Positions 2,362-21,299 of a stretch of DNA of 21,435 bases are shown here, one piece after another. The notes below the pieces were generated by a model. That model had not been told where the DNA came from and searched no databases. It saw only the letters and a list, made by a program, of their open reading frames with translations. Within the stretch, counting starts at the first letter, position 1. Every line of letters begins with the position of its first letter. The translations under genes and the position numbers were made by a program. The stretch comes from a virus, in the IMG/VR virus record IMGVR_UViG_3300000576_000030, positions 1 to 21,435 of that record; one strand, 5' to 3'.

Positions 2362-3783
2362 CTATTTTCCTGTGCTCACTGTGCTTGTTCTTCTGATTAA
2401 ATCCCTGAGTTGCATACTGCTTTTTACTGGCGCTGTTTCTTCATGTCTTTTGTCTTGTGATTTGTCATCATCGCTCACTATGTTACTCTTGTTTAACTGA
2501 TTTAATACCGTTGCAGTAGTAGCACTGATTGCATCCATTTCTTCATCACTGAGGTCACTGATTCTAAGTGTTTTGTTATCAAATTTCAAATCTACCTTCT
2601 GACCAACACCAGCACTACTTCTTGTCTTCAAAAATTGTATCTGATAACGACCACTTTCTTTCATTGAAATAGTAGTGAAAATTGCCATAACATTGTCGGA
2701 AGTGTTGATTTTTGAAATCCCACCGCTTATATGAGAATGATCGAAGTCATGTGTTTCAACAGATTGTCTATTAAGTTGTGATGCAGTTGCCATCAAGCAG
2801 TTTAGTTCTACAGCTAGATTTCTTAGTTCCTCACTGACGTACTTATCCTTCACGAACAGATCAGTTGGTGATACTTTTTTATTAGCTGGGAAACAAAGAT
2901 CAAGATAGTCAATAAGTATTGCATCTACCTTGACACTTGTTTGTATTTCATATTCTTTAATATATGCTCTTATGTCGTTTGCATTGCACCCAGTTGGTAG
3001 TTGCTTTATTTGTAGTGAACCAACATTGCCAGATTTTTTAAAGGTTGATACTTTTAAGCTCACATCACTTATGTTTTTCATTATTTCTTTTTGGCCGTAA
3101 CCGCTGGTCATGGAATCTATTCTCATACTACATAGATCCTCACTTAGTTCTAAACTGATATAAACAACGTTGTATCCCATTTGCGCCCAGTTTAGTGCTT
3201 GGTTTTGCAGAAACAAGCTTTTGCCACTTCCGCTTTGCCCAGCCCATATATTCAGTTCACCTCTATTGAAACCACCGTATAGTTTTTCATCTATGTGTTT
3301 CCAACCTGAACTTACGGTGTTTTTTCTATCTCTCATGCTTTCTAGTCTTGCTTCTGGATCAGAGAAATAGTCAGTACCAAGGTCTTTTACAATACCAAGT
3401 TCAGAAGCAGCTTTCAGAGCTTCAACGACTTCGCCGAGGCGGTTTTCTTTTATTAGATCTATGCTCTTGTGTACAGCTTCTCTTGCTGCTTTTTGTTGGC
3501 AGAATCTTTCAATATTTTTTAGAAACCAGTCTACGTGTTCGTCATTTATGTCTTCTATTTTTTCAAGTTTTACGCCTGTTATTGACCTGATTTGTTCATT
3601 TGTTGGAATTGATGAGTGATCGTCGGTGTAGTCAATTAGTAGCTTTACAACCTTTCTTGTTACTGGATCATCAAAGTAAGATGGTGACAGAATGTTCTTG
3701 ATTCTGACGAACATCTCTGGGTCACTATACATGAATTGAACAAACAGATGTTCTATTTCTTCAGTGAATTCAGTTATTTCCAT
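2362..3783 (-). CDS. 41: Replicative DNA helicase, T4 gp41 (DnaB-type)
   Basis: The 473-residue product matches the DnaB/gp41 hexameric helicase plan and unwinds DNA 5' to 3' ahead of the fork together with the primase. The N-terminal helical domain covers about residues 1-130. The RecA-like motor has Walker A GQSGSGKS (182-189), a Walker B strand AILIDYLD (288-295) and the sensor region ASQLNRQ (334-340). A disordered charged tail follows residue 420. The length is close to T4 gp41 (475 residues). It is preceded by the primase gene with an 18-nt gap, so the two primosome subunits are probably co-transcribed. Start at the ATG at 3783, after AAGGAC. Confidence 0.93.
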   Translation of the reverse strand: MEITEFTEEIEHLFVQFMYSDPEMFVRIKNILSPSYFDDPVTRKVVKLLIDYTDDHSSIPTNEQIRSITGVKLEKIEDINDEHVDWFLKNIERFCQQKAAREAVHKSIDLIKENRLGEVVEALKAASELGIVKDLGTDYFSDPEARLESMRDRKNTVSSGWKHIDEKLYGGFNRGELNIWAGQSGSGKSLFLQNQALNWAQMGYNVVYISLELSEDLCSMRIDSMTSGYGQKEIMKNISDVSLKVSTFKKSGNVGSLQIKQLPTGCNANDIRAYIKEYEIQTSVKVDAILIDYLDLCFPANKKVSPTDLFVKDKYVSEELRNLAVELNCLMATASQLNRQSVETHDFDHSHISGGISKINTSDNVMAIFTTISMKESGRYQIQFLKTRSSAGVGQKVDLKFDNKTLRISDLSDEEMDAISATTATVLNQLNKSNIVSDDDKSQDKRHEETAPVKSSMQLRDLIRRTSTVSTGK

Positions 3784-3801: not shown

Positions 3802-4818
3802 TTAGTACTTACCTTGGTCTATTTTGCGCCATACTTTTATTTTATCTGGATCATTTGTTATATTATAGAATACACTTCTTATAGAGTACAGTAGTCCGTA
3901 CTTTTTTGCTGCATCAGTTAAATCTTTTACTCCTCTTCCCCATGGTGGAAAGCTCACATACCAACCGTATTGCATAGCAGCTTCAACCAGTGGCATACCG
4001 CTTGGGTCTCTGTCTGGAAGAACCACTTTTTTTGTATGTATGGTATTGATCATTTGTGCTTGTGATGTGTTTATGCTATTACTGAGTGTTGCAATACCAT
4101 CACACAATAATGCGTCAAATGGGCCTTCTACTATTATAGTGTATTCTCTTTCGTAGTTTCTTTGTGCATCTAAATTATACAAGTAACGATCTGGTGTTAT
4201 ATGATAATATCGGTTTTTTGCGTTGGCTTTGTCAGCCATTCTTCCAGTATAACCAACGATAGCATCACGATGGTAGTAAGGCAGTATCAACCTGTAATTG
4301 GTTCGATATTTTTTATATGGTGTCCACCAGACTTTACTCAAGTCGTATATCTTTCTGCTCATTGCATATTGTGCAACTGTTAAGAAAGCTGGATCTGTGC
4401 ATTCATGTTCAGCCCATACACTAATCGGCAGTGAGTCAGGTGGTAGACTAACTGGCTCCCACTCTTTTATGTCTTCTAGTATGCTCAGAGTCGGTATTGG
4501 AATGTTAGTTTTTTCCATATAAGAGCGGAAGTACAGATTTTGTATCTGTGTATCAGGAACACCTATTGTTTCCATTAACTCTCTTATGTCCCAAGAAATT
4601 TCTGAACCAGTAACCCATAGTGCACTGAACCCGCAGTTAAAGCAGTTCATACCTATCATGTCAGATGAGAAGTTAATACCGAATCGCTCTCTTTTGTCTC
4701 TTGTTTCTCCACGGCGAACGCACATTGGACAGTTGGTTTTTTTCCAACCGCTTGGTGTGCTTTTCAGTGGTGGCAAGTAAGAAGAGAGTGTATTGGATAA
4801 AGATTGATACAGTGACAT
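3802..4818 (-). CDS. 61: DNA primase, T4 gp61-like
   Basis: The 338-residue primase makes RNA primers for lagging-strand synthesis and works with gp41. An N-terminal zinc ribbon has C30, C33, C59 and C62. The Toprim catalytic domain shows IIVEGPFDAL with E231 and VVLPDRDPSG with D269 and D271, the metal-binding acidic residues. A conserved GVKDLTDAAKKYG segment follows near 296. The ATG at 4818 is preferred over an in-frame TTG at 4842, because the TTG would overlap the promoter seen just upstream and adds nothing family-like. Length is close to T4 gp61 (342). Confidence 0.9.
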   Translation of the reverse strand: MSLYQSLSNTLSSYLPPLKSTPSGWKKTNCPMCVRRGETRDKRERFGINFSSDMIGMNCFNCGFSALWVTGSEISWDIRELMETIGVPDTQIQNLYFRSYMEKTNIPIPTLSILEDIKEWEPVSLPPDSLPISVWAEHECTDPAFLTVAQYAMSRKIYDLSKVWWTPYKKYRTNYRLILPYYHRDAIVGYTGRMADKANAKNRYYHITPDRYLYNLDAQRNYEREYTIIVEGPFDALLCDGIATLSNSINTSQAQMINTIHTKKVVLPDRDPSGMPLVEAAMQYGWYVSFPPWGRGVKDLTDAAKKYGLLYSIRSVFYNITNDPDKIKVWRKIDQGKY

Positions 4819-4825
4819 ACTCAAT

Positions 4826-4854
4826 AATATATCACAGTTCAATCTTGTTGTAAA
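4826..4854 (-). promoter_or_regulatory. Sigma70-like promoter for primase-helicase
   Basis: On the minus strand TTTACA (4849-4854) and TATATT (4826-4831) are separated by exactly 17 bp, matching the sigma70 -35/-10 layout. The -10 ends 7 nt before the primase ATG at 4818, so the transcript would start at or next to the start codon. This fits early expression of the primosome from host RNA polymerase. Confidence 0.5.
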
Positions 4855-5845: not shown

Positions 5846-6214
5846 ATGAATTTAGAAATAATAAAAAACAACTACCCATTTCTTTCTTGTGTTAGGTACG
5901 CAAACACAGAATACATATGTGTGATTCAAAACTCAAGTGACCGATTAATAACTTTTTACAACTACGGTGAACTAAAATCATCAGATGAAAAAAGATTATT
6001 CTTGGAATTCGGAGACATTTGGTGGAATGAAAGCAACAGACTGGTACCCATTAATATATTCATGCGAGGCCAGATGGACCAGTTCAAACACATACTAAAG
6101 ACAGTCAACAAAAAAGATGCTGAGATTATTTTCGGCCCATCTATTTCTCTTGGTGATATCATACAAAAAAGAATCAAGCGTCGTCAGATCTCTCTAGTAC
6201 GGAAAATAGATTAA
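5846..6214 (+). CDS. Conserved phage protein of unknown function, plus strand
   Basis: The 122-residue product begins MNLEIIKNNYPFLS and contains an FGDIWWNESNRLVPINIFM block in the middle and a basic C-terminal tail (IKRRQISLVRK). I recall similar small proteins in marine T4-like phages but no function. It is one of only two genes on the plus strand and has its own late promoter 9 nt upstream. Its 3' end overlaps the convergent gene at 6174-6464 by 41 nt, so the two transcripts are antisense to each other over their ends. Confidence 0.75.
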   Translation: MNLEIIKNNYPFLSCVRYANTEYICVIQNSSDRLITFYNYGELKSSDEKRLFLEFGDIWWNESNRLVPINIFMRGQMDQFKHILKTVNKKDAEIIFGPSISLGDIIQKRIKRRQISLVRKID

Positions 6215-6464
6215 ACCTTTCCGACAACTGTAAGTTGTATAGCTTGCGAACGTTTTCTTTAACATACGCATCTAAGTGGGTGCGTATGTCATCATACCTT
6301 AGTTGTATGATCAGCATGTCTTTGTCAGACAACGTAACAATGATTCTACTGGTATCACTGCGTTTCAATTCAATGTTTTTCATTCTAAGACTATCAAAAA
6401 ACAACTTAACAAGTTGTAACCTTGGAGGTGTATAAACCACGTTAGTGGTTATATCATGTGTCAT
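6174..6464 (-). CDS. Unknown small protein, last gene of the uvsW operon
   Basis: The 96-residue charged protein has no recognisable motif. A GAGAGGAAC ribosome site lies 5 nt before the ATG, and the start overlaps the end of the Pol III-like gene by 11 nt. Its last 41 nt lie opposite the 3' end of the plus-strand gene. The predicted fold is mixed (LIIQLRYDDIRTHLDAYVKE). No function is proposed. Confidence 0.65.
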   Translation of the reverse strand: MTHDITTNVVYTPPRLQLVKLFFDSLRMKNIELKRSDTSRIIVTLSDKDMLIIQLRYDDIRTHLDAYVKENVRKLYNLQLSERFNLFSVLERSDDA

Positions 6465-7038
6465 TTTGTTCCTCTCTAATTAGGTTTAATTGTACGACTA
6501 TCACCATAGCAAAAGCATAGCTGTGTGACTTCTTGAAAAAGTACCCACTGTCTGTTTTTTCTTTTTTCCACACGTTCTTTTCAACAACATCCCAGGGTTG
6601 ATATCGCAAGTAAGACTTTGCTGGGCGTATAAGTGCTAATAACATAGCCAGATGATCAATACACATAGGCTTCATCTTTGTTGTGAGTTCTACGTGATTG
6701 TTTAAATGAAACAATTCCTTAACTATTTTTGGATCTTCAAGCATATCCCAAGTTGGTTCGCGTTCTAGTAGTGCATTTAGATGATCTTCAGATTCTACTT
6801 TCTGATATATACTGTTGTTAAGTAAATCTATCTTGAAATACCCAAGCTCCGCAGCACGATTATGATCTATATTGGCCACGTTTTCAAGTGGATTTAGTGG
6901 GATAGGTTGAAAGTAAACACCACTGTTGTGTTTTTCTGGCTTATCTTTTCTTTGTATGCTGGCTGGTACATGACGTAAATGACATAATAAATCGTTTCTG
7001 TTTTTCATGTCAATGTCAATGTCAGCATAGTTTATCAT
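6454..7038 (-). CDS. Condensed DNA polymerase III alpha-like protein
   Basis: The 194-residue protein carries several signature motifs of bacterial C-family polymerases, in the right order but with most of the enzyme missing. D6-I-D8-I-D10 resembles PDIDIDF, which carries two catalytic Asp. GYFKIDLLN (66-74, D71) resembles the KFDFLGL motif with the third catalytic Asp. LFHLNNH...LALIRPAK (109-141) resembles the GVFQLES...ALYRPGP region, and FFKKSHSYAFAM (167-178) resembles FNKSHAAAYA. Bacterial alpha subunits exceed 1,100 residues, so fingers, PHP exonuclease and OB domains are absent. Whether it polymerises or has another role is unknown. It overlaps neighbouring replication-operon genes at both ends (ATGA upstream). 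Confidence 0.75.
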   Translation of the reverse strand: MINYADIDIDMKNRNDLLCHLRHVPASIQRKDKPEKHNSGVYFQPIPLNPLENVANIDHNRAAELGYFKIDLLNNSIYQKVESEDHLNALLEREPTWDMLEDPKIVKELFHLNNHVELTTKMKPMCIDHLAMLLALIRPAKSYLRYQPWDVVEKNVWKKEKTDSGYFFKKSHSYAFAMVIVVQLNLIREEQNDT

Positions 7039-7715
7039 AGTCCTGCCTCTTGTAGTATTTGTTTCACGTATTCTATTTGATTTGTTTTTACTTTGAAAAT
7101 CTTGGTCCAGTTCTTTAACTTAACAACTTTAGAAATTATTTGATCTTGTTCTGGAGACAATCGTTCTATTAAGCTATCTGATGTTTCCGCAAGATACAAT
7201 GCCCAAGGTGATATTCTTCCATAACGTATTAAGTTGGTTGCTTCACCAGTAGACACTTCTTTGAAAAAATCACTAAAGTGCTTACCATTTTCTTGTGCCC
7301 ACTTTGCCATAGTTTCAATGCTACGTTCAAGTGCTCTATCAGGATTTTCTTTTTCTAGTAAGTCAACAATATAATTTTCGTAGGTTTTATCTCTGCACCA
7401 CAGATTTTCTTTTATACCGTTTGTGAATAAGTAATCAATAAAACGGTCTTGATCAATGGGTCTGAGGTCCATTATGTGTCTTGCCAATTTTATGAAAGAC
7501 ACATAATATCTACTTGTAACAAAATCATTGAATGTTTTTGGTGTTTGAGAATTAGTATTAAGTTCATAAAACCGCCTGTATAATTCAAGGCCCATTCTGC
7601 TTGCCACTGTGTCTTTTTCTAGATGTCTTCTTTTTATTGGGCACATGTGAGCAGAAAGTGTTTTTTCATTTCTGAAATCACGCTGACAAAATCCGCACAC
7701 AAATGGTTTACTCAC
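7035..7715 (-). CDS. Zinc-finger protein of the replication operon, unknown function
   Basis: The 226-residue protein starts with a C2H2-type finger: C7-x2-C10-x12-H23, with C25 or H31 as fourth ligand, plus the hydrophobic spacing of a classical finger (FVCGFCQRDFRNEKTLSAH). The remaining 190 residues are mostly helical with no known catalytic motif. I recall homologues in marine T4-like phages. It is coupled to both neighbours by ATGA overlaps, between gp62 and the Pol III-like gene, which suggests a role in replication, repair or transcription. Nucleic-acid binding is inferred from the finger only. Confidence 0.75.
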   Translation of the reverse strand: MSKPFVCGFCQRDFRNEKTLSAHMCPIKRRHLEKDTVASRMGLELYRRFYELNTNSQTPKTFNDFVTSRYYVSFIKLARHIMDLRPIDQDRFIDYLFTNGIKENLWCRDKTYENYIVDLLEKENPDRALERSIETMAKWAQENGKHFSDFFKEVSTGEATNLIRYGRISPWALYLAETSDSLIERLSPEQDQIISKVVKLKNWTKIFKVKTNQIEYVKQILQEAGL

Positions 7716-8972: not shown

Positions 8973-9276
8973 TACAGTTTTGTATAATGGTCAATGAGAA
9001 TTGTCGCTCTAAATAATACCAAATATTCTCACCAGTCTTTAACTTGTGATGCATTTGTTTTTTTTCATCTATGTCTATATCTATAGAAAGACGAAGCACA
9101 GGAACAAAAAACTCTGGATCGATATGTATTTCTGCTTTTGTTATCCTGGCATTTTCGTCAAAATCACGAAGAATTGACTCGATGGATAATAGGACTCCGA
9201 ATGAGTCAGGATTAGTACTGATATATCCATATTCAAATACTTTTTCGGGTAGTGATATGCTAAATTTTTTAATCAT
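8965..9276 (-). CDS. Unknown small protein following uvsW
   Basis: The 103-residue protein contains alternating beta and acidic stretches (LRLSIDIDIDEKK). Its ATG overlaps the uvsW stop as ATGA, and its end overlaps the next gene by 8 nt. No domain is recognised. The coupling to uvsW suggests co-expression, not necessarily a shared function. Confidence 0.65.
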   Translation of the reverse strand: MIKKFSISLPEKVFEYGYISTNPDSFGVLLSIESILRDFDENARITKAEIHIDPEFFVPVLRLSIDIDIDEKKQMHHKLKTGENIWYYLERQFSLTIIQNCID

Positions 9277-10727
9277 AATGGCTTCTTAATCACTTTAAAT
9301 GGATAACCTTGTTCTCGGTAATATCTCTTTCTTTCAGTTAAGTGTCTTTTACTATACTTGTGATTAGAGCAAATATCAAATACATTCACAAAGTCTTTAT
9401 CTTTTGCGGTTCTGATTCCGCGACCTATACTTTGTATTACTCTGATGAAACTTTTTCCCGGTTCAAACAAGTACAAGTTGAAAATTCTTGGAATATCAAT
9501 GCCAACGGCTGCAACACCATATGTGGCTATGATCACTTTGTTATTTTCTTTCTGAACACTTTCATATTCAGACTTTCTTTGTTTGCTTTTTACAGCACCA
9601 CTAATAAACACTGAATCAGGTATAATATCAAGTAGTTTTCTTCCGGACTCTACTCTGTTAACCAATATTAGTGTATTACCTGAGTTAGATTGTGATATTG
9701 CGTGACTAGCCAAAAATTCTAACACATCGTTTGAAGTGGTAATATATTTGTATTCATCTGCAAAAGTCTTGAATGCTTTTATATTATCTTGGAGTTGTAA
9801 TATATCTATCTGTAAGTTAGCCAGCTTGCCTTTCTCTTGTAGTTCAGTTGCTTTTATTGAGTTAACAACAGGACCAACAGTAGCAGTGAGACACAGTGCG
9901 TCAGCTTCTTCTTTTGGTATTGTTCCAGTCATTCCCCATCGTATAGGTATGCGAGAAAAGGCAGTAGTCATTAATTTCCGTAATACTTCGGCTCCTAGTC
10001 CATGTGCTTCGTCAACTATAACACATATTACATCCTGTGTAAAGTCTTCTATATCAAAGCTTTCATCGTAGTGTTTACTTTTTTTGTTTAGTACTTCCAG
10101 GCTTTGCCATGTACACACAGTATGTGTTTTATTGTAGTCTTTTCTGTCTCCGTAAAACACACCCACATCCAAGCCCATGTTCAAGTACATTTCTTCTGTT
10201 TGTGTTACCAAATCTTTACTTGGAACGATAACAATGCTTCTGCCGTAAGGCTCCACTTTATTAGACAATATACCTGTTATCAGTGTTTTACCAGATGCAG
10301 TTGGTAGTTGTTGCATGCACTGGGGATTTTCAAGATATGAGTTGATTGCATCAACTTGGTGATCCATGACTTCTATCGGTTGGTTTTCAAACTTATGACC
10401 GGCTGGCCACTTAATATGACTATAACTATCTTTTGTTATTTTCTCAAACTGAAAATCGTAGTGTTGTCTTCGGTCTTCTATTTCTATTTGATAACCAGCA
10501 TCATTAACTATAGGTATTAGCCTGTCAAGTAAGTTTATGTTTGTTCTACCACCTATATCACAAAATCTAATACAACCGTCCCATCTTCCTAATTTGAACG
10601 CTGGTGTATGTCTTGCATAAGGTAACATAAACTTAACTTTGTTTGAAAGCTTTCTTCGAGTTGTAACATCTAGTCCTTCAAACTTACAATTACATTCATC
10701 AAGTATTATTAATTTACAGTTTCTCAT
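9273..10727 (-). CDS. uvsW: UvsW-like SF2 helicase
   Basis: The 484-residue protein is a superfamily 2 helicase. It has a Q-like region MDHQVDAI (121-128), motif I LPTASGKT (141-148), motif II DEAH (239-242), motif III TGT (267-269) and motif VI IQSIGRGIRTAKDKDF near the C-terminus. The N-terminal 100 residues with RWDGCIRF match the UvsW double-stranded DNA-binding head domain. In T4, UvsW rewinds and branch-migrates DNA, resolves R-loops and helps switch from origin-based to recombination-based replication. T4 UvsW is 503 residues. A sigma70-like promoter ends 8 nt before the ATG, and the operon continues to 6174 with overlaps throughout. Confidence 0.92.
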   Translation of the reverse strand: MRNCKLIILDECNCKFEGLDVTTRRKLSNKVKFMLPYARHTPAFKLGRWDGCIRFCDIGGRTNINLLDRLIPIVNDAGYQIEIEDRRQHYDFQFEKITKDSYSHIKWPAGHKFENQPIEVMDHQVDAINSYLENPQCMQQLPTASGKTLITGILSNKVEPYGRSIVIVPSKDLVTQTEEMYLNMGLDVGVFYGDRKDYNKTHTVCTWQSLEVLNKKSKHYDESFDIEDFTQDVICVIVDEAHGLGAEVLRKLMTTAFSRIPIRWGMTGTIPKEEADALCLTATVGPVVNSIKATELQEKGKLANLQIDILQLQDNIKAFKTFADEYKYITTSNDVLEFLASHAISQSNSGNTLILVNRVESGRKLLDIIPDSVFISGAVKSKQRKSEYESVQKENNKVIIATYGVAAVGIDIPRIFNLYLFEPGKSFIRVIQSIGRGIRTAKDKDFVNVFDICSNHKYSKRHLTERKRYYREQGYPFKVIKKPL

Positions 10728-14606: not shown

Positions 14607-15128
14607 TTAGACCTCGTTAAGAAAGGATATCACATTTTCAGGAGAAGTTTCACCGTATGGGTCGTCTTCGCAATTATCACTCTTTCCTGGTTCAACAAAC
14701 ATTTTTTCTACGATTCCATTATCAACAACCGCAGCATATCTCCATGAGCGATATCCAAATCCGAGATTGCTTTTGTTCACAAGCATATCCATGCCTTTAG
14801 TGAACTCTCCATTTCCGTCTGGGACCATTTTGATGTTCTTAATGTTTTGTGTTTGTGCCCATTTGTTCATAGTGAATGAATCATTTACGGATACACAATA
14901 TACATCGTCTACACCCAAAGATCTAATGGTTTCGTAATTTTCTTCAAACCCAGGTACTTGATATGTTGAACAGGTTGGTGTGAAGGCCCCAGGCAATGAA
15001 AAAATCACCACTCTCTTACCGTCAAACAATTCTGATGAAGTGACTTTTTGCCAACGATATGGATTGTCACCACCAATTGACTCGTCTCTTACTCTTGTCA
15101 TGAATGTTACATCAGGTACTCTAACCAA
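14607..15128 (-). CDS. Peroxiredoxin (Prx5 type)
   Basis: The 173-residue enzyme reduces hydrogen or organic peroxides with thiol electrons. The active site PGAFTPTC (46-53) carries the peroxidatic C53 with T50; R130 in SWRYA is the likely active-site Arg. Further Cys at 78 and 153 could resolve. Length and sequence match the Prx5/AhpC-TSA group. The start is a TTG at 15128 with a very good AGGAGG site 9 nt upstream; the next in-frame ATG at residue 10 would remove part of the first strand, so TTG is preferred. It is embedded in the gp32-uvsX operon, two bases after the preceding stop. It is a host-like metabolic gene, probably protecting replication from oxidative stress. Confidence 0.9.
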   Translation of the reverse strand: MVRVPDVTFMTRVRDESIGGDNPYRWQKVTSSELFDGKRVVIFSLPGAFTPTCSTYQVPGFEENYETIRSLGVDDVYCVSVNDSFTMNKWAQTQNIKNIKMVPDGNGEFTKGMDMLVNKSNLGFGYRSWRYAAVVDNGIVEKMFVEPGKSDNCEDDPYGETSPENVISFLNEV

Positions 15129-15427: not shown

Positions 15428-15631
15428 TTATTGTTCCTCTTCGTCAATGCCAAAGTGTATTAATGCTGCGGTCAGCAAGTCTTTGTCAATATCTGTTAAT
15501 TGGTCTAGTCCATCTGCATACCCATATTCATCCAATACATTAATCAGAACATCTGCTGCTACACCTCTGTCTTTTTTTGGTATATATGGTTTGATGGCAG
15601 ACCATAAGTCTATTACAAACGATTCATTCAT
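15428..15631 (-). CDS. Small conserved phage protein following uvsX
   Basis: The 67-residue acidic protein has the segments SFVIDLWSAIKPYIPKKDRG and a C-terminal DKDLLTAALIHFGIDEEE. I recall a family of this kind in cyanophage-like myoviruses with no function. Its start overlaps the end of uvsX by 8 nt, which suggests translational coupling. It carries no metal or nucleotide motif. Confidence 0.72.
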   Translation of the reverse strand: MNESFVIDLWSAIKPYIPKKDRGVAADVLINVLDEYGYADGLDQLTDIDKDLLTAALIHFGIDEEEQ

Positions 15632-16703
15632 TTTCTTGATTTTCCTCTTCTACGTCTTCATCTGTTTCTTGCGATCTGGAGTGAAACTCGTTCATTACCA
15701 AATCTAGTATACCATTGGTGTTTTTATACCACTCTTTCTTGAAGTATAAATGTTCGTCACCGTTGTTATCTGTGTATAGATATCTGTTGCCTCTCTTAGC
15801 AAGAAGACCTTTCTTTTCAAACAGTTCAAATAAACCACTGTAAGGGTCAAGACCACTTTCATAAGGTATTTTTAGTTCAATGCTTTCAAATGGTTTGCTG
15901 TAGCGACTTTTCATCACTTTACATGCTGAACGAATGCCTGTTACATCAGTGATTTTTGTTCCGTTCTCATCTTCTTTTAGTTTTAGTTTTCGCATTGCGA
16001 TTACAATAGAGCTTGCAAAAATGAATCCAGCACCACCACTCAGTTTTGGATCAGGATCAAACATATCCATACTAGCATATGTGTGGTTTGTGCAAACAAG
16101 ACCAATATCCCATTGTGCAATAAGATTAACACTGTTTCTAACTAATGCAGTAAGGCTTTTGGCTTTTCTACCCAAGTCGCCTTTCATATCACCCTTATCG
16201 AATTGGTCCACATCTGTTGGTGTTAGCAACATACCAAGACTATCTACCACGAATAACACTTTAGGTCGATCTTCTTTTTCCATGTGACCATAATCGTCTT
16301 TGTATTGTTTAACGAAGTCGGATATGATCTTTGCCACATCATCGATCATACTTACAGAGAGTCGTAGTAGTTTATCTTCAGATGTATCTACACCAACTGC
16401 TTCCAACCAAGATTGATCCAATGCATTTTCTGAGTCTATTAGAACCACGAAAATACCTTGGTCTTGTGCATTTTTGACTAGATTTCCTGATGCAATAAAC
16501 GATTTTCCACTTCCACTTTCCCCACCTAGAACAGTGACTTTGCCCATTGGGATACCACGGTAAAAGTCATTAGAAATAAGGTAGTTTAGACCATAACTTC
16601 CTGTGTGTATCCAAGTGTCTGGATCATTGAATCCTGCTGCGATGTTTGTAATACTTTTTGTAATGCCCTTCCTGAACTTTGAAGGATCAAAGGTTTTTGA
16701 CAT
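15624..16703 (-). CDS. uvsX: UvsX, RecA-like recombinase
   Basis: The 359-residue protein forms filaments on ssDNA and drives strand exchange for repair and recombination-dependent replication. Walker A is GESGSGKS (61-68), Walker B VLFVVD (149-154), and the DNA-binding loop region follows GDMKGDLGRKAKSLTALVRN. The frame is open to 16751 but the ATG at 16703 (MSKTFDPSKFRKG) has CAGGAG 5 nt upstream and matches the family start. T4 UvsX is 391 residues. It lies directly after gp32, its mRNA partner and ssDNA competitor. Confidence 0.94.
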   Translation of the reverse strand: MSKTFDPSKFRKGITKSITNIAAGFNDPDTWIHTGSYGLNYLISNDFYRGIPMGKVTVLGGESGSGKSFIASGNLVKNAQDQGIFVVLIDSENALDQSWLEAVGVDTSEDKLLRLSVSMIDDVAKIISDFVKQYKDDYGHMEKEDRPKVLFVVDSLGMLLTPTDVDQFDKGDMKGDLGRKAKSLTALVRNSVNLIAQWDIGLVCTNHTYASMDMFDPDPKLSGGAGFIFASSIVIAMRKLKLKEDENGTKITDVTGIRSACKVMKSRYSKPFESIELKIPYESGLDPYSGLFELFEKKGLLAKRGNRYLYTDNNGDEHLYFKKEWYKNTNGILDLVMNEFHSRSQETDEDVEEENQENE

Positions 16704-16722
16704 AATTTCTCCTGTAGGAAAT

Positions 16723-16752
16723 AGTGAAGGAGTCCAGAACGAACTCCCCACT
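16723..16752 (-). promoter_or_regulatory. Hairpin between gp32 and uvsX
   Basis: On the minus strand AGTGGGGAGT (16743-16752) pairs with ACTCCTTCACT (16723-16733) with one bulged base, around a 9-nt loop. No U run follows, so it is not an intrinsic terminator. It could be an RNA-processing or stability element that sets the gp32 to UvsX ratio. It lies 20 nt before the uvsX ATG. Confidence 0.45.
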
Positions 16753-16777: not shown

Positions 16778-17782
16778 TTAAGATGTAGTACGACTGCGGA
16801 TTTTAGCCAGAATATCTTCTGCACTAGTTCCGCCACCAGATGGCTTATCAGCAGTTTTTTCTTCTTTCTTTTGTTCTTCTACTACTGGTTCAGATTTCTG
16901 TTCTGGTTCTGGTGCTGGTTCAGATTTTTGTTCAGACTCGTTTCTGTTAACTGCTTTTGGCACATTAACAGAAGCAGAAGTTGAAGCAATATCTAGACCG
17001 TATGGCTTATAGAAACGACCCCATTTTGCTGGGTCATACATTTCACCATTTACACTTGCTTCAAACATTTCACTGATAACTTGAACAGCTTCTTGATCTG
17101 GCTTTTCTGGAAGCCATTCTTTTAGATCAAACAAACCATATGTTTCAATAGCTTGTCTCTGTTCGTCAGTCAGCGAAGATTCACGCCTTGCATACTTACT
17201 GGTGCTATAATCGTTGTATCCGCCTTTGCTGGCTTTAACGATTTGGAAGTTAACACCGTTATCATAATCAGTTGGGATATATTCCATATCTGGATCAAGA
17301 AGTGCTGCCTTGATGATATTGAATATTTGTGGACTAATTATGAACTTTCTGATTGGATTTTCAGGTACTACTTTTTCGTTTAGTGTGTCATCTAAAACAA
17401 AACCTTGCAAAAAGTAACTACGCTTTTTCCAATACTTTCGTGCAGTTTCTTCCAGATCTGGATCTTTCCACCATGGACGAACTTCATTTAGTATTGGACA
17501 AGATTCACCGTACATTTCCATACATGGGACCTTAACAAAAATACTCTTGTCAGTATTCCCGCCAACAACACCTGGAAACTCCAGATTAATTTGTTGTCTT
17601 TCTCTCCAGAAAAATGTGTTATCAGGATCTTTATCAGGTAGGAATCTCAGTGAGACTGTTGATCCTTCTTCAATATTCCAGTGGGGGTAAACTAGTGAGC
17701 CTTCTTCTTCTTGGTTAGCGTTATTATTGTTTCTGTTGTCCATGCTTTTTAGTTTTGCACGGATGTCTTCTAATGTTGGCAT
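16778..17782 (-). CDS. 32: Single-stranded DNA-binding protein gp32
   Basis: The 334-residue protein coats ssDNA and coordinates replication and recombination. The N-terminal basic segment (RAKLKSMDNR) corresponds to the cooperativity domain. The core has YPHWNIEEGSTVSLRFLPD, then KVPC87MEMYGESC95 with PWWKD, matching the zinc-containing OB core of marine T4-like gp32; T4 uses His and three Cys, while only two Cys are clear here, so the zinc site may be altered. The tail from 285 is a Glu/Lys/Pro-rich linker (QKSEPAPEPEQKSEP) ending in a short basic helix. It has its own promoter and a leader pseudoknot. The start follows AAGGAG by 10 nt. Confidence 0.92.
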   Translation of the reverse strand: MPTLEDIRAKLKSMDNRNNNNANQEEEGSLVYPHWNIEEGSTVSLRFLPDKDPDNTFFWRERQQINLEFPGVVGGNTDKSIFVKVPCMEMYGESCPILNEVRPWWKDPDLEETARKYWKKRSYFLQGFVLDDTLNEKVVPENPIRKFIISPQIFNIIKAALLDPDMEYIPTDYDNGVNFQIVKASKGGYNDYSTSKYARRESSLTDEQRQAIETYGLFDLKEWLPEKPDQEAVQVISEMFEASVNGEMYDPAKWGRFYKPYGLDIASTSASVNVPKAVNRNESEQKSEPAPEPEQKSEPVVEEQKKEEKTADKPSGGGTSAEDILAKIRSRTTS

Positions 17783-19224: not shown

Positions 19225-21249
19225 TTATACGATAACTGGCATCGGTTCGTTATCGAATTCCTCATCATCAGAGAAACGATAGTCCATCATATTTTCTAAA
19301 CCCTCTTCCCATTGGGATATGTGTTGTGACATGCGTATATTTACTAAAAGACTCATCACCAAATCATCAGTTTCACCAGCACAAGCACTATAAGAATTTC
19401 CTTTTGCGATAAAATATTTTAATTCGTGAATCAAACTTTTACTTTTTATTGAAATCCTATCATTCTCTACTAAATGCTTTAATTTAGCACACGCTTCAAG
19501 TTTATTTTGATTTGTTGTGTTATATCCTTTTCTTTTTATTCCGGTGGACTTTCTTTTTGGATCATGCATAAAAGTGCCCGGGAAGGTTTCTTCATCTTGT
19601 TCTCTTATGGCAACAAGACACGCCTCTCCTATAGAGTTATTTTCAACTGTCCAATAAATCTCACTTTTTGGTGCTGTTTCTTGTATTTCTATTGCTATGC
19701 TTTTTAAAACTTTTAATTGATCTTCGATTCTTGTTTTATTATGCCTCCATTCAGCTACTTGTTTTAGAGAAGGCAATTCCAATACTTGGATTGCACTATA
19801 ATCACCGCCTGTGCCCATACTTGGGTCAAGTGTTATGGTATAAATCTTTTTATCTTTTATGGGTTCATACCAACGAACTTGTCCTGTTTTTCTGATTGGT
19901 TGTTCGTGTTCAAGTTGCAGCAATTTAGCACCTGATATAAGTGTTTCTGTGTATGAAACAAATTCACAAAGATGTTCGCGCTTGAATCGATCAGATCCAA
20001 TTTTTTCAAACTCTACTCTGGCCCATTCTTCATCACGTTCTGGGTGTGATTCCCAAGTTGCCAAGTAACCTTTGAATCCATTTGCACCTATATCTTGTTC
20101 ATTTCCATATTCATCTATAGTCTTTTGTGAACCAAACCAAAGTTCAGCAAATTGGTTGTCGTCTTGGTTTGGTGTGCTTGTGATGATAACTTTACCACCT
20201 GTACTTAAAGTAGGACTCAATGATGTCCAAAACTCTCTGGCTATGGTTGGTCTAACAAACGCAAATTCGTCAAGGTATGCGCAGTTATGTACATCAATTC
20301 CGTTGGCTATAAATGATTGTGTATCTTGTACATTGATCAAATCTGACACTGCATGTGTTTCTGTTTCTAAGATTCCAGTAATCGTATCACTACCACATTC
20401 GGTTCTAATATTTTCACCAATTAAAAGTTTATCACAGCTCTTCCAACAATTACCATCTATTGAAAAAAATTCATGATCTGGTGTACACTCAATTTGATAC
20501 TTTTTTGTTGTAAGCAAAACGCAACTTTTAAGTGCAACTGTGATACCTCCAAAGTCTTTGAAACCTTTAATCGTTAGCACTTCATACTTTGTGTTTTTTG
20601 TTAATGCAACGTCCTTTGACAAATCCTTGTTCTTTTCAATTCTTTCTTCATTGCTTAATTTTATGAGTTCTCTTATTGTGCTTTTTTTAATTTCGTCTGT
20701 TTCTTTGTCTCGTACGGTAACTATACTCTTGTCTGTTCTAACACAACTAATACTCATACCGCGACCTGTGTTTTCTGTTGTTGTTTGTGCAATAACTCTG
20801 GAGCCATTGTCAAACTCTACACTTCCTTTGTTGTATGATGTAACACCACAACGTATATGATCAGGAACAGATTCATATGCAAATCTAAGTCTTTGCATTA
20901 TTTCTTGTGCCCCAAGATATTTGTGTGCTGCTATTAAGATTGTGCTATCTGGGTTGAACATTGCAAACCAAAGCAAGTATGCTGAAGCCAACACTGATTT
21001 GCCCATTTGTCTACTAACCATAGCGATAGAGTTTCTATAGTTATGGTATACATCACACAATTCATATTGATATGGATATAACTTAAAAGGAACACGACCT
21101 TTAGTTGGGTGCTGGACATATACGAAGTTTTCAATAAAGTATGTTGGACCAGTAACTTGGTTCATGCACTGTGATAGCTCTTCTATCATCGTTTGCGTGT
21201 ATGTTATCTTTTTGTATGGCTTTTTGACTAGGTTTATATCTACACTCAT
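19225..21249 (-). CDS. 17: Terminase large subunit gp17 interrupted by an intein
   Basis: The ATG at 21249 (MSVDINLVKK) is chosen because a late promoter ends 8 nt upstream, inside the longer open frame. The 674-residue precursor has the packaging ATPase with Walker A SRQMGKS (79-85), Walker B YLDE (325-328) and the ITSTPN coupling motif, then an RNase H-like nuclease with Asp in TLDPSMGTGGDYS, Glu in WTVENNS and Asp in GETDDLVM. Residues 169-322 are an intein; splicing would leave 520 residues, somewhat shorter than T4 gp17 (610). The enzyme translocates and cuts the concatemeric genome at the prohead portal. Confidence 0.93.
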   Translation of the reverse strand: MSVDINLVKKPYKKITYTQTMIEELSQCMNQVTGPTYFIENFVYVQHPTKGRVPFKLYPYQYELCDVYHNYRNSIAMVSRQMGKSVLASAYLLWFAMFNPDSTILIAAHKYLGAQEIMQRLRFAYESVPDHIRCGVTSYNKGSVEFDNGSRVIAQTTTENTGRGMSISCVRTDKSIVTVRDKETDEIKKSTIRELIKLSNEERIEKNKDLSKDVALTKNTKYEVLTIKGFKDFGGITVALKSCVLLTTKKYQIECTPDHEFFSIDGNCWKSCDKLLIGENIRTECGSDTITGILETETHAVSDLINVQDTQSFIANGIDVHNCAYLDEFAFVRPTIAREFWTSLSPTLSTGGKVIITSTPNQDDNQFAELWFGSQKTIDEYGNEQDIGANGFKGYLATWESHPERDEEWARVEFEKIGSDRFKREHLCEFVSYTETLISGAKLLQLEHEQPIRKTGQVRWYEPIKDKKIYTITLDPSMGTGGDYSAIQVLELPSLKQVAEWRHNKTRIEDQLKVLKSIAIEIQETAPKSEIYWTVENNSIGEACLVAIREQDEETFPGTFMHDPKRKSTGIKRKGYNTTNQNKLEACAKLKHLVENDRISIKSKSLIHELKYFIAKGNSYSACAGETDDLVMSLLVNIRMSQHISQWEEGLENMMDYRFSDDEEFDNEPMPVIV
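20284..20745 (-). other. Mini-intein inside terminase
   Basis: The 154-residue insert begins with C1 (CVRTDKSIVTV, block A), has block B as ECTPDHEFF with the TxxH motif, and ends with block F SDLINVQDTQSFIANGIDVHN, the penultimate His and terminal Asn, followed by extein C+1. These are the residues of a class 1 self-splicing intein. No homing endonuclease domain (LAGLIDADG or HNH) is visible, so it should splice but not move by itself. The insertion lies between GRGMSIS and CAYLDEF, directly before Walker B. Confidence 0.92.
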
Positions 21250-21257
21250 AGTAAGAT

Positions 21258-21265
21258 TATTTATC
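21258..21265 (-). promoter_or_regulatory. T4-type late promoter for terminase
   Basis: The minus strand reads GATAAATA; TAAATA ends 8 nt before the ATG at 21249. The same GACGATAAATA string recurs at 19167. Confidence 0.6.
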
Positions 21266-21276
21266 GTCATTCCACA

Positions 21277-21299
21277 GAAAACCACAAGAGTCGTGGCTC
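21277..21299 (-). terminator. Terminator-like hairpin before terminase (copy B)
   Basis: On the minus strand CCAC (21293-21296) pairs with GTGG (21282-21285), followed by TTTT (21278-21281). It would end the transcript of the repeat-protein gene just before the terminase promoter. Confidence 0.5.

Follow-up and report, generated by a model that had tools for sequence, protein, structure and literature searches.

The 194-residue C-terminal half of a minimal, split DNA polymerase III alpha in a T4-like viral replication operon

What is a protein of under 200 residues with the motifs of the bacterial replicase doing in a replication operon of the T4 type? The question is raised by a viral contig of 21,435 bases (the whole stretch of DNA analysed here, referred to as the window), which carries a T4-like replication and recombination operon with genes for a DnaB/gp41 helicase, a gp61 primase, UvsW, UvsY, UvsX, a gp32-like single-strand DNA binding protein and a gp17-like terminase. 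A sequence-only reading of this DNA had picked out four motifs of DNA polymerase III alpha in one ORF, in the order in which DnaE has them, and had proposed that the protein is a lone, condensed relic of that enzyme. All four motifs, DIDID, GYFKIDLL, ALIRPAK and FFKKSHSYAFA, are found in this order in the ORF, which is laid out as follows.

6454..7038, (-) strand: C-terminal half of a split minimal DNA polymerase III alpha, 194 aa, PHROG 11778
7009..7023, (-) strand: first catalytic strand DIDID, residues 6-10; D6/D8 correspond to D401/D403 of E. coli DnaE
6820..6843, (-) strand: second catalytic strand GYFKIDLL, residues 66-73; K69/D71 correspond to E. coli K553/D555
6616..6636, (-) strand: fingers motif ALIRPAK, residues 135-141; R138 P139 correspond to E. 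coli R639 P640
6508..6540, (-) strand: FFKKSHSYAFA, residues 167-177, corresponding to E. coli YGFNKSHSAAYA; H172 corresponds to H760

The ORF has an ATG start with a purine-rich AAGAGG site upstream, and shares a 4-base ATGA overlap with the preceding gene. An additional DnaE motif, KH..GV, is also kept (K36-H37 and G40-V41, in the region of E. coli H511). The protein starts with MINYADIDID, which places the catalytic strand at its very N-terminus, as in the family of C halves described below, whose members typically begin with MPD(I/V)DIDF. The GS motif is absent from the window protein and is located in the partner family of N halves, and the layout of a single-chain DnaE, with PHP domain, thumb, complete fingers, OB and C-terminal domains, is not that of the 194-residue protein.

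The ORF is a genuine fragment of a family-C (DnaE-like) polymerase. PHROG 11778, annotated as DNA polymerase, matches the window protein over residues 5-190 (E 6.6e-65), and PHROG 405, the family of full-length DnaE, matches it in two collinear stretches (E 1.4e-9 overall). When a profile built from 48 relatives was run against 177,635 PDB sequences, the top seven matches were DnaE chains (best E 0.009); the aligned parts of E. coli DnaE are 594-641 and 752-767. The HMM-HMM comparison that the sequence-only reading had suggested gave E 2.2e-7 in a profile-profile search of the C half against seven DnaE sequences, residues 55-140 aligning with E. coli 539-641. A phmmer search of PDB with the single window sequence gave no match, and Pfam gave only a sub-threshold fingers match (E 0.18); one sequence is evidently too divergent, and profiles are required. 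The relatives are numerous. By tblastn the protein was matched in 63 phage records, always at less than 60% identity; in 61 of these the match spans 80% or more of the protein. The records are mostly of jumbo phages, among them RaK2, 121Q, PBECO4, GAP32, CBB, PA5oct, Paride, Atu_ph07, Phosso, SCTP-2 and XacN1. At least 559 environmental viral stretches (559 of the 600 candidate stretches listed) encode relatives of the C half. The window protein is 34-50% identical to the aligned members from named phages and up to 57% identical to environmental relatives.

The predicted fold leads to the same assignment. An AlphaFold2 model of the C half, made with the 48-row alignment, has a pLDDT of 91.9, and its residues 1-194 align with Taq DnaE 458-841 (Z 9.5), E. 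coli DnaE 401-784 (Z 8.7) and PolC 968-1299 (Z 8.5). Its 15 best structural matches are all DnaE or PolC (Z 6.0-9.5), the next unrelated fold having a Z of 3.3. The proposed homology to the palm and fingers of DnaE, for which a Pol beta-like palm had been named as the decisive feature, is thus borne out by PHROG, PDB profile and profile-profile matches and by a model that agrees with DnaE/PolC over its whole length, and chance similarity of the motifs is ruled out. From the superposition on DnaE, the Asp residues of the C half would be expected to cluster.

Where, then, is the rest of the palm? Four named phages (Atu_ph07, Phosso, Paride and RaK2) were searched with PHROG 405 and PF07733, and in each of them a second match was found far from the C-half locus; it lies upstream of the clamp-loader gene, in an ORF of about 170-177 aa. 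A profile of this N-half family places DnaE chains at the top of a PDB search (best E 0.013) and matches DnaE in profile-profile comparison with E 5.4e-7. The N-half model (pLDDT 88.3) aligns through residues of about 68-168 with E. coli DnaE 278-393 (Z 10.8, 4jom) and reaches Z 12.1 with chain 5lew, the top structural matches again all being DnaE or PolC. Both halves therefore match DnaE, and nothing else clearly. They map to adjacent, non-overlapping parts of the E. coli enzyme, the N half to about 278-393 and the C half to about 397-784. The N half ends with ..GRGSSVASYVLYLIG..EFLK and the C half begins with MPD(I/V)DIDF; the C-terminal consensus of the N half, GVGRGSSVASYVLFLIGVHKVNSIKYDLDFxEFLK, has a DnaE counterpart that reaches E. 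coli residue 393, soon after which PDFDVDF follows (P400, D401, D403). These ends are nearly uniform in 80 + 80 environmental loci, as ..EFLK-stop and start-MPDVDIDF. Together with the mapping on DnaE, they show that two genes share the DnaE palm between them and that the cut falls in the loop that immediately precedes the first catalytic strand. The window protein accounts for the C-terminal half of this split enzyme; in related phages the N-terminal half, which carries the GS motif, has a gene of its own. No N-half gene was found on the 21-kb contig of the window, which is a fragment.

The two halves keep close company. Among the 60 listed phage records with a C half, 59 also have an N half and are among the 60 N-half records listed, the exception being a record of 109 kb, and both halves are present on eight of nine contigs of 212-365 kb. 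The ninth of these large contigs (G005) stops at the helicase gene next to the C-half locus; it was considered as a phage lacking the C half and set aside for this reason.

The residues that are kept and those that are lost bear on what the pair may do. The hallmark of family C, the Asp triad in PDxDxDF plus KxDxL, is present in the C-half family. Identical in all 48 aligned C halves are D6, D8, D10, K69, D71, H37, G40, R138, P139, K141, F168, K169 and H172, and GRGS (R137, G138 and S139 of the GS motif) is invariant in 43/43 N halves, while mean column identity is only 57% in the C-half alignment (n=48) and 50% in the N-half alignment (n=43). The ten aligned C halves from named phages keep D6, D8, D10, H37, K69, D71, R138, P139 and H172, so that the catalytic Asp positions named in the earlier reading are invariant in both sets; loss of a catalytic Asp in divergent named phages was looked for and not seen in these ten. 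In Atu_ph07 gp074 (L004:12001-12576), the RefSeq start is called 27 codons too late, which is why DIDID is left out of the RefSeq protein; the conserved start, MKNIPDIDIDF, is at L004:12001.

Such invariance is difficult to reconcile with the view that a complete phage DnaE is decaying into a relic. That the enzyme is shortened and split could be read in this way; however, length and split site are uniform in the 160 loci inspected, the C half is encoded in at least 559 candidate stretches, the catalytic residues do not vary and the co-occurrence of the halves is near-strict, and we consider decay highly improbable. Of the sequence-only view of a lone condensed relic, the shortened family-C fragment stands; it is neither alone nor a relic, but the C half of a split enzyme whose N half is encoded near the clamp loader.

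The losses are nevertheless extensive. The split enzyme is without the PHP domain, the thumb, most of the fingers and everything beyond about residue 784 of the 1160 in E. coli DnaE. Counterparts of the invariant DnaE residues between D405 and H511 (the thumb region) are missing from the C half, nothing in the alignments corresponds to the fingers elements Q687-Q689 and R709-K715 (R709 and K715 among them), and 42 of 43 N halves have a Glu where E. coli has R390. PolC is likewise not known to have an Arg at this position, and loss of the Arg need not abolish activity. With the thumb, most fingers residues and the R390 equivalent gone, canonical template-directed synthesis may be lost or altered. 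On the strength of these same losses, and of the complete family B polymerase of RaK2, the pair could be regarded as a catalytically dead or weak structural or regulatory module derived from DnaE, which might for example tether the family B polymerase to the clamp loader or the primase-helicase. A dead scaffold would be expected to lose some of its catalytic residues, yet the catalytic Asp, the Lys and the GS motif are invariant although the relatives have diverged to about 45-57% identity, and we regard this explanation as rather unlikely.

The DnaE regions that bind the clamp and tau lie C-terminal to the fingers. This weighs on the proposal, also made in the earlier reading, of a decoy for the host replicase; as such, or as an inhibitor, the protein would vie with DnaE for clamp, tau or dNTP. 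Its homology to the host DnaE would suit such a role, but the PHP domain and all that is C-terminal to the fingers, including the clamp- and tau-binding regions, are absent (the model ends at E. coli residue about 784 of 1160), the protein is split in two, and its catalytic residues are conserved across very different hosts. A decoy thus seems very doubtful to us.

In the window, the genes around the C half are as follows.

2362..3783, (-) strand: gp41/DnaB-like replicative helicase, conserved neighbour
3802..4842, (-) strand: gp61-like DNA primase, conserved neighbour
5846..6214, (+) strand: convergent gene, PHROG 11637; found on the other strand, 3' of the C-half gene, in 75/80 environmental loci
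7035..7715, (-) strand: gene upstream of the C half, 226 aa, PHROG 11058; its start weakly resembles a C2H2 zinc finger; neighbour, with overlap, in 74/80 loci
9273..10727, (-) strand: UvsW-like helicase, conserved neighbour
15624..16751, (-) strand: UvsX-like recombinase
16778..17782, (-) strand: gp32-like single-strand DNA binding protein

The window has the neighbourhood of the family, UvsW - C half - primase - DnaB helicase. In loci long enough for the comparison, the C half is accompanied by UvsW in 53/57, by the primase in 53/54 and by the helicase in 53/54, and the N half lies a median of 1.36 kb upstream of the clamp-loader gene, an arrangement seen in 57 of 60 loci long enough. The convergent PHROG 11637 gene, which overlaps the 3' end of the C-half gene in several named phages, is an odd conserved element within an otherwise one-directional operon. 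Two further features of the window may be recorded here. A peroxiredoxin gene (14607-15128, (-) strand; PHROG 2281, E 6e-71) separates the uvsY-like gene of the recombination operon from uvsX. The terminase large subunit ORF (19225-21285, (-) strand, 686 aa) contains an apparent mini-intein of about 154 aa, from C181 to N334 (GMSIS/C...VHN/CAYLDEF, slashes marking the junctions), with a weak Intein_splicing match (E 2.2e-5, below the Pfam cut-off) and little room for a homing endonuclease.

These phages also have another polymerase. A family B polymerase was found in 13/13 relatives (phages or contigs) tested, in keeping with the T4-like context and family B polymerase that had been assumed at the outset; gp43 of RaK2, with DIE (exonuclease-like), SLYP, YGDTDS and KKRY motifs, is a motif-complete example. 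None was seen among the annotated ORFs of the window's 21-kb fragment, and no family A polymerase was found in Atu_ph07, Phosso, Paride or RaK2. As a family B polymerase is present alongside it, the split Pol III is probably a second polymerase-like enzyme and not the replicase. The family B polymerase of Paride (L022, L024) and of Atu_ph07 (L021, L026) is found in more than one open frame, and a paper on the relative MIJ3 reports that the gene is split there and has a split intein (PMC6892783). ORF117 of RaK2 (L007:6724-7545), beside uvsW, is a DnaQ/epsilon-like exonuclease, and such an enzyme has been reported for Atu_ph07 (PMC6102473) and CBB (PMC5259590). It is possible that this exonuclease is the proofreading partner of the split Pol III.

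A palm that keeps its catalytic triad and GS motif, and has shed the duplex-handling thumb and most of the fingers, might also work untemplated, and the pair could be an active nucleotidyltransferase of another kind, such as a terminal transferase or a nucleotide-tagging or signalling enzyme. That its conserved neighbours are replisome genes speaks against this, and we hold it to be a lesser possibility. The explanation that we prefer, with somewhat more confidence than doubt, is that both halves form a two-chain nucleotidyltransferase or accessory polymerase that serves the phage replisome. In this mechanism, the C half would supply the three catalytic Asp residues as metal ligands, the Lys of KxDxL and the remnant of the fingers, the N half of about 170 aa would supply the GS (GRGSS) triphosphate-binding part of the palm, and a single Pol beta-type active site would arise as the two fold together in trans. 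The assembled nucleotidyltransferase might then work with the phage replisome (the gp43-type family B polymerase, the clamp loader and the primase-helicase) as an accessory polymerase in gap filling, in lagging-strand handoff or synthesis, or in repair. Here we infer the mutual binding of the halves, the activity of the pair and its role. What counts against this explanation is the distance between the two genes, which makes their coordinated expression uncertain. The chances appear to us evenly balanced that the halves assemble in trans, beside a family B replicase, into an active polymerase that has some 360 residues and neither thumb nor PHP, its palm cut between the GS part and the catalytic strand, or else into a palm with a new nucleotidyl-transfer reaction. 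If active, it would to our knowledge be the smallest, and the only two-chain, family-C polymerase.

The feature itself is already known. A minimal Pol III that is split in two has been described in jumbo phages of group 2.2, and a likeness of the split form to an ancestral form of Pol III has been proposed (Iyer et al., 2021; PMC7824862). Earlier papers on Atu_ph07 (PMC6102473) and CBB (PMC5259590) had recorded the N half only. PHROGs and recent phage annotations call the C half a DNA polymerase: PHROG 11778, which matches the window protein over its full length, is the C half, and RefSeq names the N half of about 170 aa 'DNA polymerase' as well (RaK2 ORF162 and Atu_ph07 gp316 are examples), a label that for both halves rests on homology. 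Among the open-access papers covered, we found no experimental test of the split minimal Pol III. The window protein corresponds to the C-terminal half in the description of Iyer et al. (2021; PMC7824862), with which its relatives agree in the two-gene arrangement, in the phage group (Atu_ph07 and its relatives) and in the accompanying family B polymerase; the window differs in that it is a new environmental sequence with the partner gene off the contig. A published prediction is confirmed rather than a new one made, and the window protein is an additional environmental member; what this analysis adds is the exact split site, the residue census, the co-occurrence and synteny counts and two models.

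With DnaE (1160 aa in E. coli; also the Taq enzyme) and PolC, the split enzyme shares the palm strands PDxDxDF and KxDxL, the start of the fingers, the KSHxxxYA helix and, in the N half, the GS motif. Unlike these, it consists of two chains of about 170 and 194 aa, not one of 1160, and besides the elements listed above it lacks the OB domain. Full-length DnaE proteins of phages and plasmids, such as that of Streptomyces phage Danzina, are likewise family-C polymerases encoded by phages, but they are single long chains that align with about 70-95% of E. coli DnaE.

As many giant phages that carry the split Pol III are in culture, with hosts among Klebsiella, E. coli, Salmonella, Pseudomonas and Erwinia, testing it is practical. 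The work bears on the question of what a second polymerase, of family C, is retained for by phages whose family B polymerase is complete, and on the proposed likeness of the split form to an ancestral form of Pol III (PMC7824862). Should the pair prove active, it would provide a natural example of a split polymerase and show how little of the bacterial replicase catalysis requires.
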